From the NCBI RefSeq assembly GCF_000502835.1, contig NZ_AYVL01000003.1, positions 1-64,000 of the forward strand: a stretch of DNA of 64,000 bases, read 5' to 3'. The notes beneath the pieces were generated by a model that saw nothing but the letters and a program-made list of their open reading frames with translations, was not told the DNA's origin and made no database searches. This document shows, piece after piece, positions 1-8,080 of this stretch; position 1 is the first letter of the stretch; every line of letters starts with the position of its first letter. The DNA comes from Mesorhizobium sp. LSJC280B00 (lineage in GTDB: Bacteria > Pseudomonadota > Alphaproteobacteria > Rhizobiales > Rhizobiaceae). A program made the position numbers and the translations under genes.

Positions 1-3000
1 GCTTGGTCTGCGGGACGTTCGAGGTCGAGCGTGCCGCGCAGCGCCGTCTCGCCCGAAGGCGCCTGTGGTGCACGGCGCTGTTCTGGAGCCGGAGCCGGGC
101 GACGTGGCGGTTCGGCGGGGCGTGCGGCAGGCGCTTGCGGCGTCGGACGCAGGTTGCGCTGTTCCGAACTGTCGGTGCTGCGGCCAGATTTGGCAACGAT
201 TTCAGAAAGTTCCTTCAGCGCGTTGATCTGCTCTGAAACGGCACGGCGGATAGCCGTGGTTGATTCCTTTGCCTCTTCCGGCATCTCGATGACGCCTTTC
301 TTGAGCTCGGCGCGGGTGAGGTCGAGCTCGCTCTTGATCGAGCCGGCGGTACGCCGCATCTCCTCGGTCGCATCAGCAAAGCGCTTGGTGGCCGAATCGA
401 CCACTTCGGAAATCGCGGTACGGATCTTGTCGGCGGATTCCAGCGTCTTGCCTTCGGCGTTCTGCAGCGTCTGGCCGACCAGATTCTCGAACGAGCGCAT
501 GACCCTTTCGAGATCTTCCGATTTCTTGACAAGGCCGACCGCGAGGTCCTCCAGTGACGATTGCCTTTCGAGCGTGTGCTCGAGATTGCTCTGGGCCGAG
601 CTCAACAGGTCCGAGGCACTGGAAAGCAACCGGCTGTGCTCGTCGAACTTGGTGGCGATAGAGGCAACCTCGCGCAAGGTCGAGGACGACAGCTCGGTGA
701 GCCGCGTCGTGTTCGAATCGACCAGGCGCGCCGAGCTGGCGAAGGTCTGCGCGGTCTTTTCGGTGGTCGCTGCGAAGCTTTGCGTGCTGCCGGTCAGGCG
801 TTCGTCGACCTGGCCGAGATTGGTCGCCGCCTGCTCGATCAACTGACCGAGCTGCGAGCTGGAGGTGGTCATGCGGCCGATGAGGTCGGCAACGCTGTCG
901 GCAAGCGTCGAGCGCGCGCCTTCGACGGCCGACAGGGTTTCGGCCGTACGGCTGGCGAGGGCGTCGACGAGGGCGGCGTTTTGAGTGCGCAGCTTCTCGG
1001 TCGCACGTTCGGTGACCTCTTCCATGCTCTTTTGCAGCTCGGAGCCGCCCTGGGCGAAGCGCTCGACCAGAGGCCGTGCCGTCTCGTCCAGGATTTTCGA
1101 TATTTCGGCCGAACGTGCCGCAAGCATCGTATTGAGCTCGCGAGTATTGGCACCGATGGTCTTTGCAGCGTCATTGGTGCTCTGGCCGATATGCTGGCCG
1201 ACCGCGGTGAAGGTTTCGGCGATCGAGTTGGCGCGCGAGACCAACTGCGCCTCGGCATTCGAGACCTGTTCGTTGAGCTTTTGGCCCATTGTCTCGGCGG
1301 AGTAGGCGAGGCGGTTCTCGACGCTGGCGACCTGCTCCTCGACGCGGACCGCTGTGGCGGCGGCACTCGATGCCAGGCGTTCGTCGGCACCGGCAAGCAG
1401 TTGCTCGATTTCACGGGCATGGACGGCGAGTTCCTGGCCAGTCTGCCTGGCGCGTTCGGCAACCCGCTGCTCGGTGCTGGTGAAGGCACCGACAATGGTG
1501 TCGGCATGTTCGCCGATGGCGGTGCTGCTGTCGGCAATGCGGGACACCAGACGATGATCCGCCTCCTCGAAGATGCGGCCGATCTCGGACGCACGGGCCG
1601 AAAGTGCTTCGGAGCCTTCGGCAATGCGCGAAATAAGTTGCTGGTCGGCGGCATCGAAAATGCGACCGAGATCCGACGCGCGTGCCGCGAGCGCTTCGGC
1701 GGATTCGCCGATGCGCACGCCCAGCCGCTCGTCGGCCGTTTCGAAATTGCGCAGGATGTCGCCGGCACGTGCCGCCAGCGACTGGGCCGTTTCGATGGCG
1801 CGAGAGACCAGCCTGTGGTCCGCCGCGTCGAAGGTGCCGGCAATCTCACTTGCTCTGGCTGCCAGCTGATCGGCCGTTTCCTGGGCACGCGCGAGCAAGC
1901 TGTTCGACGTGTCGTCGACGCGGGCAATCAGTGCGCTCGACGTATCCTCGGCGCGGGCGGCGAGGCGACGATCCGCCTCTTCAAAGGTGCGGGCGATGTC
2001 CTCCGCCCTGGCGAGCAGGGCGGCCGAGGTCTGCTCGGCGCGCTCGGCGATCTTGCGGTCGGCATCGCTGAATGCCGCGCCCGCCTGCTCATGCAGCGCG
2101 CTGGTAACTTCCATGACCTTCTCGCGCAGCGCGCCGGCGACGAAGACCGCGCTTCTTTCGAGCACACTGCGCACGTTGTCGACACCCGTCGACAGCGCCC
2201 GCTCCATTGTGCTGGCGCGCTCTTCAATGATGCCTGTCTGCCGGCTGAACGCCTGCTCGATCTTTTCTACGTCCGCAGCGATCGCATCGGAGATGTCGGT
2301 GCTCCTGGCGGCGATCTGGTCGATATGGCCGGACAGCGAACGGTCGACATCCTTGCGCGTTTCGGCGAGCCTGGAGAGATCGTCCTGCAATGCGCGGGTC
2401 AGCATGTCGCGGCCCTCGCTCAGCTTGCCGACATGACCGGCGACAATCTCGTCGACTTCGCTGCGGCTCATTGCAAGCCTCTCCAGATCGGCTTCCAACG
2501 CGCGCCTGAGTATGTCGCGGCCTTCCGCCAGTTTCTCAACCTGGCCGGCAACCAGCCCATCGATGCTCGAGCGGCTTTCGGCCAGCTTGGCGAGATCGTC
2601 CTCGAGCGCCTTCGACAGGGTCGAGCGGTCCTGGACGAGCTTCTCTGCGTGGGTTGCGACAAGGCTGTTGACGTTGCCGAGATCGGCTTCCAGGGCACGC
2701 GAAAACTGCGCGCGATTATCGGTCAATAGCTGCGACTGATCGGCGATGGCGCCCCTGATCGTGCTGAGATCGGCCTCCAAGGCGCGCTTGAGGATGTCGC
2801 GGCCTTCGGCCAGTTTCTCGACCTGGCCGGAAACCAGTCCGTCGATGCTCGAGCGGCTTTCGGCCAGCTTGGCAAGATCGTCTTCCAGCGCGCGCTTGAG
2901 GATGTCGCGACCCTCGGCCAGCTTCTCGACCTGGCCTGCGACCAGCCCGTCGATGCTCGACCGGCTCTCTGCCAGCCTGGCAAGATCGTCCTCGAGCGCC

Positions 3001-5897
3001 TTCGAGAGGGCCGAACGGTCCTCGGCGAGCTTGTTCATATGTTCGGAGACGACGCCCCGCACGGTCTCGAGATCGGTCTCCAGTGCCCGCGACAGCTGAC
3101 CGCGATCCTCGGCCAGCTTCTCGGATTGGCCGGCGATGACATCCTTGACAGTGCTCAGATCGGCTTCGAGCGCACGCTTGAGGATGTCGCGGCCCTCTGC
3201 CAGCTTTTCGACCTGGCCGGCAACCATCACGTCGATGCTCGAGCGGCTTTCGGCCAACTTGGCGAGATCGTCTTCGAGCGCCTTCGACAGCGTCGAGCGG
3301 TCTTCGGCGAGCTTGTTCATGTGATCGGAGACAACGCCCCGCACAGCCTGCAGGTCGCTCTCCAGTGCCCGCGACAACTGGCCACGGTCTTCCGCCAGCT
3401 TTTCGGACTGGCCGGCGATGACGCCCTTGATCGCGTTCAGGTCCGATTCCAGCGCGCGCTTGAGGATGTCGCGGCCTTCGGCCAGCTTCTCGACCTGGCC
3501 GGCAACCAGCCCATCGATGCTCGACCGGCTTTCGGCCAGCTTGGCAAGATCGTCTTCAAGCGTCTTCGAAAGCAGGCTGCGGTCATCGGCGAGCCTGCCA
3601 GAATGATCGGCGATCAGGCTCCTGATGTCGGACAGGTCGTTATCGAGTGACTGGGAAAGGCCGCTGCGGTCTTGCGCCAATTTCGCCGAATGCGCCTCGA
3701 TGAGGCCATTGATGCCGGCGATGTCGGCTTCCAGCGCGCTGGCGAGTATGGCGCGACCCTCGGCGATCTTTTCGACCTGACCGGCGACGAGGCCGTCGAT
3801 GCTGGCGCGACTCTCTGCCAGCTTGCCGAGGTCGGCCTCGAGCGCGCGCGAAAGGATGCTGCGGCCTTCGGCGAGCTTGCCGACGTGCCCGGCAACCATT
3901 TCATCAATTATCGTACGAGCTTGCACGAGTTTTCCGGAGTCTTCGTTCAAGGCCTGGGCAAGCCTGTTGCGACCCTCTTCAAGGCTTTCGAGATGGCTGC
4001 CCAGCGAAGCGTCGATCGCTGCGCGCGATTCGTTGACCTTGCGCAGATCCTCTTCAAGGGCGCGCGAGATCAGGCCGCGGCCTTCGGCTAGCTTCTGCAC
4101 CTGGTTAGCCACCGCTGCGTCGATTTCGGCGCGACCTTCGGCGAACTTCGCCAGATCGGCCTGCATTGCCGCCGCCATCCGGTCGCGGCTTTCGGAAAGC
4201 TTGCGGCTGTGGTTCTCGACGGCTTCCTCGATGCCGGCGCGAGCATCGGCAAGCCGCTGGATGTCCGTATCGAACGAACGCGATACGACATGGCGCGCCG
4301 CTTCCATGCGCCCGGCGAAATCGCCGGCGCGGGCTTCAAGCATGGTCGAGGTCGATGAAATGATGTCGGCCATGTCGGCGCCGATCTGGGTCTTGCCCTG
4401 ATCGATCATCGCCGACAGCGTCTCCTTGCTATCCTGGAAGGTGTGGGCGATTTCGCGCGCGCGCTCGACCAGCGTCTCGTTGATCTGGCGTGCGCGAGCC
4501 TCCAGCGCGGCGTTGAGCTTCTGCGTGCCGGTGTCGAGCGCCTCGGCGCGGGTTTGGAACTCGCTGATCAGCGCCTGGCCACGTTCAGCAAGCGTCCGCT
4601 CGATGCCGTTGAGGCTGGCTTCGAATTCCGAATTGAGTGTGCGGGCGGCACCGCCGAGCAGCGACACCATGCCGCTCGTGCGGTCGTCGAGCAGGTCGGT
4701 CAGTGACCGCGTCAGGCCATCGGTGGTGTCCGTCAGCTTGGCGATCCGGGTGTCGAGCAGGCTGGCGAAGGCCTCGCCCGACGTCGACAGCCGATCGGTG
4801 ATCGATTCGAGCCGGCCTTCCACCGAATCGAAGATCGACAACGAGCTTCCGTTGATCCTGTCGATCAGCGTATCGCCGGATTCGTTGATCGTCATCGACA
4901 GCTTGGTCGAGGCGTTGAGAATGCTGTCGCGAATGATATCGCTGGCGGCGTTGATCTCGTCTTTCAGTGTCTCGTGGGCGCCGGTGATCGAGGCGCGCAC
5001 GCGCTCGGCATGGGTGACGACCGCTTCGCGCTCGCTGCCCAGCCCGTCGACCAGCGAGCGGATGCGGGACTCGTTCTCTGAATAGGAGCGCTCGATCTGG
5101 TTCACCTCGCTGTGGACCAGCGTTTCGAGCTCGATGGCACGCGCAAGCGTGCGTTCGATGCCTTCGCCCATGGCTGCCACCTCGCGGCGAACCGCTTGGC
5201 CGATCATCATGACGCGATCCTGGGCAAGATTTTCCGGCTCGGCCAGACGGAAGGCCACCTCGGTCATCGACTGCGCGGCAAGGCGCATCTCCTGAGCGCG
5301 GCGAATCATCACTGCGAATGCCCAGAACAGGATGACGGGCACGATTGCCGCGACCGCTAGGCCGATCAGCTCCGGACGGGCGAAAAACTGATCGAAGGTG
5401 CGGATGTTCCAGATGCCAGGTCCGAACAACAGGTTCGCAAGGCCGCCAGCGCCGGCGATCCAGGCCAGCGAAACGAAAGCCACGACCCAGTAGATCGTGT
5501 TCGAGGCGCGCCGATTGAGGGTGTGCAGAAGCGTCTTATAGTCTTTTTGACGATCGTCGTTGGCCGGCGAGAAAGCTGCCGGCTGCGAGCCATTGCGCGT
5601 TGCGACAGGACGCAACTCAGCCGGCTTGGCCTTTGGCGCGGGATTTGCGATCTGGCTTTGATTGGCGGCAGGTGCCGCGTTCTGGGTCTGGTCCGGGGCA
5701 GGCGCTTCGTTCTGGCTGCGACCTTCGCGCGCCAGCTCGTCGGCGGCTTGCGATATTTGCGCTTCGAGATCTTCCATGGATGCAGCCATGTCGAAGTCGC
5801 CGCCGGCATCGCCGCTCAGATCGATATCAAGTGCCTTTTCAAGTTCCCTGGCTACGTCGCTGTCGAGCGTTCTTGTCGTCGTTGGTTTCTTCGCCAT
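1..5897 (-). CDS. GPR/RgsE-like giant coiled-coil polar growth protein (C-terminus cut by window edge)
   Basis: The reading frame starts at an ATG at 5897 (MAKKPTTTRTLDSDVA) and stays open for 1965 codons to the left edge, so the stop is outside the window. The N-terminal 130 residues are acidic, then Pro/Ala/Gln-rich. Two hydrophobic segments at about residues 134-158 and 177-198 should anchor it in the inner membrane. Almost all the rest is predicted alpha-helical coiled coil with apolipoprotein-like repeats, and the last visible part is Pro/Arg-rich. Architecture and size match the Growth Pole Ring protein of Agrobacterium (about 2100 residues) and RgsE of Sinorhizobium, which form a ring at the growing pole. 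Similar proteins are often annotated as kinesin-like or apolipoprotein A1/A4/E. The family assignment is from memory of the architecture; the polar-growth role is inferred. Confidence 0.8.
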   Translation of the reverse strand, partial: MAKKPTTTRTLDSDVARELEKALDIDLSGDAGGDFDMAASMEDLEAQISQAADELAREGRSQNEAPAPDQTQNAAPAANQSQIANPAPKAKPAELRPVATRNGSQPAAFSPANDDRQKDYKTLLHTLNRRASNTIYWVVAFVSLAWIAGAGGLANLLFGPGIWNIRTFDQFFARPELIGLAVAAIVPVILFWAFAVMIRRAQEMRLAAQSMTEVAFRLAEPENLAQDRVMMIGQAVRREVAAMGEGIERTLARAIELETLVHSEVNQIERSYSENESRIRSLVDGLGSEREAVVTHAERVRASITGAHETLKDEINAASDIIRDSILNASTKLSMTINESGDTLIDRINGSSLSIFDSVEGRLESITDRLSTSGEAFASLLDTRIAKLTDTTDGLTRSLTDLLDDRTSGMVSLLGGAARTLNSEFEASLNGIERTLAERGQALISEFQTRAEALDTGTQKLNAALEARARQINETLVERAREIAHTFQDSKETLSAMIDQGKTQIGADMADIISSTSTMLEARAGDFAGRMEAARHVVSRSFDTDIQRLADARAGIEEAVENHSRKLSESRDRMAAAMQADLAKFAEGRAEIDAAVANQVQKLAEGRGLISRALEEDLRKVNESRAAIDASLGSHLESLEEGRNRLAQALNEDSGKLVQARTIIDEMVAGHVGKLAEGRSILSRALEADLGKLAESRASIDGLVAGQVEKIAEGRAILASALEADIAGINGLIEAHSAKLAQDRSGLSQSLDNDLSDIRSLIADHSGRLADDRSLLSKTLEDDLAKLAESRSSIDGLVAGQVEKLAEGRDILKRALESDLNAIKGVIAGQSEKLAEDRGQLSRALESDLQAVRGVVSDHMNKLAEDRSTLSKALEDDLAKLAESRSSIDVMVAGQVEKLAEGRDILKRALEADLSTVKDVIAGQSEKLAEDRGQLSRALETDLETVRGVVSEHMNKLAEDRSALSKALEDDLARLAESRSSIDGLVAGQVEKLAEGRDILKRALEDDLAKLAESRSSIDGLVSGQVEKLAEGRDILKRALEADLSTIRGAIADQSQLLTDNRAQFSRALEADLGNVNSLVATHAEKLVQDRSTLSKALEDDLAKLAESRSSIDGLVAGQVEKLAEGRDILRRALEADLERLAMSRSEVDEIVAGHVGKLSEGRDMLTRALQDDLSRLAETRKDVDRSLSGHIDQIAARSTDISDAIAADVEKIEQAFSRQTGIIEERASTMERALSTGVDNVRSVLERSAVFVAGALREKVMEVTSALHEQAGAAFSDADRKIAERAEQTSAALLARAEDIARTFEEADRRLAARAEDTSSALIARVDDTSNSLLARAQETADQLAARASEIAGTFDAADHRLVSRAIETAQSLAARAGDILRNFETADERLGVRIGESAEALAARASDLGRIFDAADQQLISRIAEGSEALSARASEIGRIFEEADHRLVSRIADSSTAIGEHADTIVGAFTSTEQRVAERARQTGQELAVHAREIEQLLAGADERLASSAAATAVRVEEQVASVENRLAYSAETMGQKLNEQVSNAEAQLVSRANSIAETFTAVGQHIGQSTNDAAKTIGANTRELNTMLAARSAEISKILDETARPLVERFAQGGSELQKSMEEVTERATEKLRTQNAALVDALASRTAETLSAVEGARSTLADSVADLIGRMTTSSSQLGQLIEQAATNLGQVDERLTGSTQSFAATTEKTAQTFASSARLVDSNTTRLTELSSSTLREVASIATKFDEHSRLLSSASDLLSSAQSNLEHTLERQSSLEDLAVGLVKKSEDLERVMRSFENLVGQTLQNAEGKTLESADKIRTAISEVVDSATKRFADATEEMRRTAGSIKSELDLTRAELKKGVIEMPEEAKESTTAIRRAVSEQINALKELSEIVAKSGRSTDSSEQRNLRPTPQAPAARPAEPPRRPAPAPEQRRAPQAPSGETALRGTLDLERPADQ
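2480..4070 (-). repeat. Higher-order 282-bp (94-residue) repeats in the GPR-like gene
   Basis: Codons for the recurring phrase RDILKRALEADL end at 2508, 2790, 3180 and 3462, and the related phrase in the next unit follows 282 bp later. The spacing is exactly 282 bp, apart from one extra 108-bp unit (2790 to 2898). Each 94-residue block splits into subunits of 29, 29 and 36 residues, each beginning R-x-x-L-(S/K)-(K/R)-A-L-E and ending EKLAE(D/G) or NKLAED. The 36-residue subunit equals a 29-residue one plus one heptad. The lengths are whole heptads plus one residue, as in a long coiled coil with regular phase shifts. Confidence 0.85.
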
Positions 5898-6179: not shown

Positions 6180-6551
6180 GTGATACGTGGCGAAAACGGC
6201 ATTACCTTCTCGATGCCCGGCGGCGACGTGTCGGGGACAGCCGGGGCGCGGCCGATCGACCTGGCGCATCTTGCGCGCCAGACGATGGGCGATCGGAGCC
6301 TCGAGCAGGAGGTGCTGGCTCTGTTCGTGCAGCAGGCGCTGTCGGTGCGCGACAAGATCGTCCATGCGGATGTCAGGCAGCGGCTGCTATTGGCACACGG
6401 GCTCAAAGGCTCGGCGCGCGGGGTCGGCGCCTTCGCCATTGCCGATTGCGCCAGCGCGATCGAATGCCGGCCCGAAGACGCCAGCACGCTGAAGCGGCTT
6501 GGCTCGCTGATCGAAGAAGTGCGCGACTTCGTCGCCGCCATCAGCCGATAG
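6180..6551 (+). CDS. HPt-domain phosphotransfer protein
   Basis: A 123-residue single-domain protein starting at GTG with ACGGAG upstream. Residues about 25-122 form a histidine phosphotransfer (HPt) domain. The motif AHGLKGSARGVGA contains the phospho-accepting histidine in its usual H-x-L-K-G-S context. HPt proteins relay phosphate between a hybrid kinase and response regulators in the cytoplasm. The partner is not adjacent; CckA lies 14 kb away but normally uses ChpT, which is a different fold. The gene is divergent from the GPR-like gene and stands alone. The domain call is firm; the pathway is unknown. Confidence 0.85.
   Translation: MIRGENGITFSMPGGDVSGTAGARPIDLAHLARQTMGDRSLEQEVLALFVQQALSVRDKIVHADVRQRLLLAHGLKGSARGVGAFAIADCASAIECRPEDASTLKRLGSLIEEVRDFVAAISR

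Positions 6552-6648: not shown

Positions 6649-8080
<1,432 letters not shown>

Follow-up and report, generated by a model that had tools for sequence, protein, structure and literature searches.

The very long helical rod of a GPR/RgsE-type protein, encoded at the edge of the DNA stretch analyzed here, changes its length between species mostly in sums of 11 and 18 residues. This stretch, called the window below, is the initial 64 kb (64,000 nucleotides) of contig C3 in the genome of Mesorhizobium sp. LSJC280B00 (7.0 Mb in 120 contigs). How can such a rod gain and lose pieces and still keep its surface pattern? The best explanation, which we regard as probable though well short of certain, is that the rod is phase-locked: whole-unit recombination would change the length of a repeat array, and selection would act on the phase of the hydrophobic stripe. 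Read from its N-terminus, the protein would then have two membrane helices, a helical stalk of fixed length in the cytoplasm, the variable array and further helix, and it would end in a proline-rich linker followed by a nearly invariant C-terminus. Its helix would be made of two quanta, one of 11 residues in 3 turns and one of 18 in 5 turns, and units of 29 (11 + 18) and 36 (18 + 18) residues would give a nearly straight stripe with a period of 3.61, compared with about 3.665 in relatives built purely on 11 residues. Unequal recombination between similar DNA units may gain or lose whole units, chiefly in the middle of the array, and length changes that rotate the stripe may be purged by selection, since the helices are proposed to be packed laterally along it; a homo-oligomeric bundle located at the pole of growth is the likeliest arrangement. 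A wider version is offered tentatively, with the balance slightly against it: the protein might be an order-wide polar scaffold under a digital, phase-locked length code, in which length changes come in whole 11/18 quanta only, stalk length does not change within a genus, and the register of the bundle counts for more than absolute length.

The gene appears in the list of open reading frames as a minus-strand frame of 1,965 codons, and because the contig begins at window position 1, the frame is open at its 3′ end. The preliminary description of this DNA had the extent of the frame right and left the truncation unmentioned. The C-terminus resumes at G000:C37:1-481, a separate contig, and roughly 8 bp are lost between the two. 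Five of 101 frames in the genus stop at a contig edge (that of the window, at 1-200, and those of L009, L020, L024 and L073), all of them in or near the proline-rich linker, whose 20-codon blocks have a GC content of 0.73-0.80 against 0.56-0.68 nearby; such endings are probably a weakness of assembly rather than biology. An antisense open frame of 722 codons lies on the plus strand at window 561-2729, and the longest frame of locus L064, like that of L101, is antisense. These antisense frames are probably an effect of codon bias.

As judged from the sequence, assignment of the protein to the GPR/RgsE type, already proposed in the preliminary description, is supported by its anatomy, its distribution across Rhizobiales and its gene neighborhood. 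Of the genomes scanned for the N-terminal 265 residues, 117 of 119 in the genus, 149 of 151 in the family and 246 of 247 in the order contain them, these samples being overlapping ones. Among the best 80 of 561 relatives, the closest named ones are Mesorhizobium sp. LMG 17147 and LSHC420B00 (99% over a 150-residue query). Again from the best 80 of 561 relatives, 64 named loci include some 10 kb of upstream sequence; a divergent gene like that at window 6180..6551 (plus strand) is located within 1.5 kb in 63 of them, and a gene like that at window 6649..6969 (plus strand), which we take to be ferredoxin-like, occurs in all 64. The N-terminal block is conserved and carries two putative membrane helices ahead of a very long helix (AF2, low confidence), and the C-terminal 60 residues are almost invariant among 95 complete genes of the genus, most columns being at 0.98-1.00, far above the rod.

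Table. Features of the gpr/rgsE-type gene in the window (aa, residues of the encoded protein).
Feature	Window position	Strand	Basis or content
gpr/rgsE-type gene, 1,965 codons, 3′ truncated by contig edge	3..5897	-	frame and genome contigs
First membrane helix, about aa 133-159	5421..5501	-	by eye from sequence, without TM predictor
Second membrane helix, about aa 176-198	5304..5372	-	by eye from sequence, without TM predictor
Fixed-length stalk helix, aa 206-582	4152..5282	-	11-residue self-similarity
Variable array, aa 583-1174	2376..4151	-	36,36,36,36,29,29,36,29,29,36,29,29,36,36,29,29,36,36
94-residue block 1 (36+29+29), aa 691-784	3546..3827	-	DNA repeats and unit comparison
94-residue block 2, aa 785-878	3264..3545	-	DNA repeats and unit comparison
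94-residue block 3, aa 879-972	2982..3263	-	DNA repeats and unit comparison
Extra 36-residue unit, aa 973-1008	2874..2981	-	DNA repeats and unit comparison
94-residue block 4, aa 1009-1102	2592..2873	-	DNA repeats and unit comparison
Second 29-residue repeat stretch, more divergent, about aa 1262-1500	1398..2114	-	protein offset 29 and 87-bp DNA repeats
Proline-rich linker, aa 1901-1965, contig end here	3..197	-	sequence

The array of the window consists of 18 units, each of 36 or 29 residues; it opens with four 36-mers and closes with two further ones. DNA repeats are spaced by 282, 108 and 390 bp. In a self-comparison of aa 576-1180, identity reaches its maximum at offset 94 (50%, z 31, the best of 200 shuffles giving 13%), followed in order by offsets 130, 224, 36, 188, 29 and 65, with offset 18 at z 9. 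The 94-residue blocks (29/29/36) at 282-bp spacing, noticed already in the preliminary description, are exact, the constant spacing being seen in both DNA and protein. The repeat itself is real and longer than had been described. The 36-residue unit said to be inserted once does sit as a single insertion inside the 94-residue register, and there are more 36-mers on both sides of it. Further downstream, aa 1181-1500 show self-identity at offset 29 (z 13) together with the 87-bp repeats in DNA.

What kind of helix do these units make? By Fourier analysis, the hydrophobic residues of the array follow a period of 3.610 with a power of 89 (at most 10.2 in 200 shuffles), coherent over 592 residues, and throughout the genus the period is 3.610-3.615 on a fixed 590-residue stretch. 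Power at period 3.5 is just 0.2, so a heptad coiled coil was rejected. The previous argument that 36 equals 29 plus one heptad and so keeps coiled-coil register is arithmetically correct, but the register is not that of heptads. Hydrophobic columns are spaced 7,4,4,3,7,4,4,3 in 980 A units, with two extra columns, and 4,7,7,4,4,3 in 806 b units, with one extra column; because of these spacings, 36 is read as 18 + 18 and 29 as 11 + 18. For a wider sample, 40 order-list and 40 family-list genes were chosen non-randomly for long frames and spread, and a period of at least 3.65, near 11/3, was found in 37 of the former and 15 of the latter. Across the order, rod length differs by a factor of more than three, with frames of 2,840-3,392 codons in L153, L164, L179, L180, L184, L176 and L187, and of under 1,200 in L132, L133 and L134.

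A unit-end profile was run on 101 proteins of the genus, namely that of the window and those from 100 of 116 other matching genomes, the remaining 16 having short or broken frames or falling past the 100 taken. The profile was trained on the same proteins whose spacings were counted. With the threshold set at 10, no protein in a set of 60 shuffled ones scored above -18.6. All but two of 1,798 unit-end spacings are 36 (986) or 29 (810), the two others being 58 and 72. The proteins show 37 different unit strings, 99 of the 101 starting with 36x4,29,29,36,29,29, and they contain 14-31 detected units in arrays of 462-997 residues; the low end of this range includes L102, where two double spacings represent missed units. 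Since these two units fell under the threshold, L102 was excluded from unit comparisons. The distance between the first membrane helix and the first unit end is 450 residues in 99 proteins and 486, one unit more, in L102; L023, which has no match to the TM motif, gave neither this distance nor flank data.

Length changes were counted in disjoint nearest-neighbor species pairs of the genus, 46 of the 48 pairs being analyzed as two had no end motif. One end motif was used per pair, which removed six terminal gaps of 36 caused by mismatched end motifs in the earlier count. The stalk has no indels, the array 35 (36 x11, 29 x11, 65 x4, 94 x4, 123 x2, and 58, 101 and 130 once each), and the C side outside the array 10 (11 x7, 40 x2, 18 x1). 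Every one of the 41 indels no longer than 100 residues is a sum of 11 and 18, a property of just 32 of the numbers 1-100. The 10 events on the C side are the cleaner test because those of the array depend on its unit structure. In a wider count of 201 overlapping pairs, 219 of 255 gaps of up to 100 residues fit the rule, and most of the misses involve L034, the others being gaps split in two or gaps of 7 residues. The C-terminal frame of L034 (G031) departs from the otherwise nearly invariant C-terminus, probably by a frameshift in the sequence or in the gene, and L034 was dropped from the 46-pair counts for this reason.

The same numbers are found within single proteins. The top self-identity offset of up to 100 is a sum of 11 and 18 in all the 159 proteins compared, 80 from the order and family lists and 79 from named loci. 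An 80th named locus was too short, and some of the named ones also belong to the genus set. With shuffles that preserved the hydrophobic pattern, strong offsets (z above 6, in the range 8 to 100) fit the rule in 815 of 819 cases (451/455 and 364/364), against 34% of all offsets, and four strong ones fall off it. Stalks of 61 out of 80 proteins from other genera align to the stalk of the window without a gap. In the remaining ones 29 of 37 gaps fit the rule; the eight exceptions measure 3, 4 or 7 residues, and several of them lie near the end of the alignment.

Which part of the array changes during evolution? Unit strings differ in 28 of the 46 disjoint nearest-species pairs, and array length differs between species at as little as 1.6-2.5% flank divergence. 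The string is the same in 17 of 25 genus pairs below 3% flank divergence and in 46 of 182 pairs at 3-6%. Each unit was then compared with its nearest unit within its own genome and with units of genomes more than 10% diverged. Units 1-6 are in no case closer to units of their own genome (0/99 each), nor is the last unit (0/99); units 7, 8 and 9 are so in 7, 7 and 9 of 99, the penultimate one in 11 of 99, and mid-array units in 154 of 674. Because own-genome likeness is found in the middle of the array and is absent from units 1-6 and the last unit, the ends of the array are old and its middle turns over. At the DNA level, mid-array A units in the window share 84-91% identity. Eight pairs that differ by a single extra stretch supply nine extra units, six of which most resemble a neighboring unit, two a unit two places away and one a unit three places away, with 79-99% DNA identity to the best-matching unit. 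Copy-number change, which the preliminary description had anticipated, is thus seen between Mesorhizobium species, and recombination is its likely cause.

The median dN/dS is 0.032 in the stalk and 0.078 in the array (63 non-independent pairs with the same string). The array of the window has no proline and no cysteine, and its net charge is -31. AF2 predicts helix nearly throughout, the longest helix of the stalk model having 196 residues and those of the array model 193, 126 and 153. Confidence is low (pTM 0.26 and 0.23), also for the breaks in the helix of the array model at residues 195-197 and 324-330. When the PDB was searched by fold with the N-terminal AF2 model, 30 matches had E up to 10 and none had E of 0.001 or below.

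Could the quantized lengths simply come from the mechanics of DNA? Crossing-over or slippage between units would produce them as a by-product, with helix phase not being selected, and this is unlikely in our estimation. The DNA identity of mid-array A units, the frequent likeness of an extra unit to its neighbor and the whole-unit changes all agree with it; however, C-side indels outside the array obey the same rule, so do most of the stalk gaps between genera, and dN/dS is low. Slippage of DNA by 11 residues could account for a part of the C-side and stalk patterns. Whole-unit changes in the array would also be expected from recombination alone, without selection on phase, and evidence on selection comes only from the between-genus comparisons, the constancy of the stalk and the 10 events on the C side. 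Another possibility, raised in the preliminary description from the strict repeat, is that the array works as a molecular ruler fixing a dimension of the polar ring. The units are very regular and the 450-residue stalk is constant, and the helix, if extended, would be long relative to the 200-nm ring that has been published (PMC8262873). If extended, the helix from the membrane to the C side would span 235-306 nm in 76 proteins, which exceeds the radius of that ring. Because array length doubles within the genus, and differs even between species that are close by their flanks, such a ruler is very improbable; constant length is confined to the stalk.

It has also been hypothesized that the helix is an apolipoprotein-like one that binds lipid (PMC8262873), lying on the membrane with the stripe as its lipid-facing side. 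The whole protein matches PF01442 at 91.5 bits, just above the cut-off of 90, in nine stretches, and a profile match to apolipoprotein A-IV has an E of 6e-10. A helix lying on the membrane would likewise require an unbroken stripe, and thus phase-preserving indels. On the other hand, a 261-residue piece matches PF01442 at 2.1e-8 when reversed and at 3.6e-10 when forward, so that periodicity and composition suffice and the match need not mean homology; by this control on one piece, apolipoprotein homology is weakened. The array alone matches PF25541 (57.7 bits, cut-off 27.8) and PF12210 (36.4 bits, cut-off 30.6) above PF01442, which we read as coiled-coil cross-matches. The array is acidic, and the stripe is narrow (10 of 36 columns). 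Lipid binding as the reason for the pattern is in our estimation quite improbable, and we prefer a phase-locked rod whose helices would be packed along their stripes.

A large bacterial group relies on GPR/RgsE as a key organizer of its polar growth. As length seems to shift between species only in ways that preserve the stripe, length and helix phase can be tested separately: the 11/18 rule allows in-phase and out-of-phase deletions to be compared at one site. Deletions in the coiled coil described in PMC8262873 are given as 20 or 21 residues. Neither number is a sum of 11 and 18, so if the Agrobacterium helix obeys the rule, each deletion would have taken out a domain and turned the stripe at once, and interpretation of these deletions comes into question.

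GPR is Atu1348 of Agrobacterium tumefaciens (2,115 aa) and RgsE is SMc00190 of Sinorhizobium meliloti (2,089 aa), according to PMC8262873 and PMC7327166. By these published descriptions, both resemble the window protein in very large size, two N-terminal membrane helices, about 1,700 helical residues, PF01442 matches, a proline-rich stretch before the C-terminus and occurrence throughout Rhizobiales. The S. meliloti laboratory strain Rm2011 is one in which deletion of rgsE is possible (PMC7327166). RgsE is termed "repeat-containing" in PMC7327166, and the words "repeat", "heptad" and "periodic" are absent from PMC8262873. In the titles and abstract openings of the GPR/RgsE polar-growth literature searched, to which this statement is limited, the 29/36 unit structure is not described. 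What distinguishes the present case is the 29/36 array with a period of 3.61, found in Mesorhizobium and nearby genera.

Other systems share single aspects of this protein. ZorA of the Zorya system is a membrane protein with a long helical tail, but kinship to it was rejected, the NCBIfam match being at chance level (E 0.18, 10.6 bits against a cut-off of 250). Apolipoproteins A-I, A-IV and E have an amphipathic periodicity of 11/22 residues, and the window protein is like them in this periodicity and in profile similarity; it differs in being membrane-anchored, far longer and supplemented with 18-residue quanta, and its similarity survives reversal. Hendecad and 18-residue coiled coils have stripe periods of 11/3 and 18/5 and tolerate stripe-preserving insertions. 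Both the periods and such insertions are shared by the rod described here, and what goes beyond hendecad theory is that the rule spans most of a rod of at least 1,600 residues, is followed by many natural indels, and holds for the top offset in every one of the 159 relatives.
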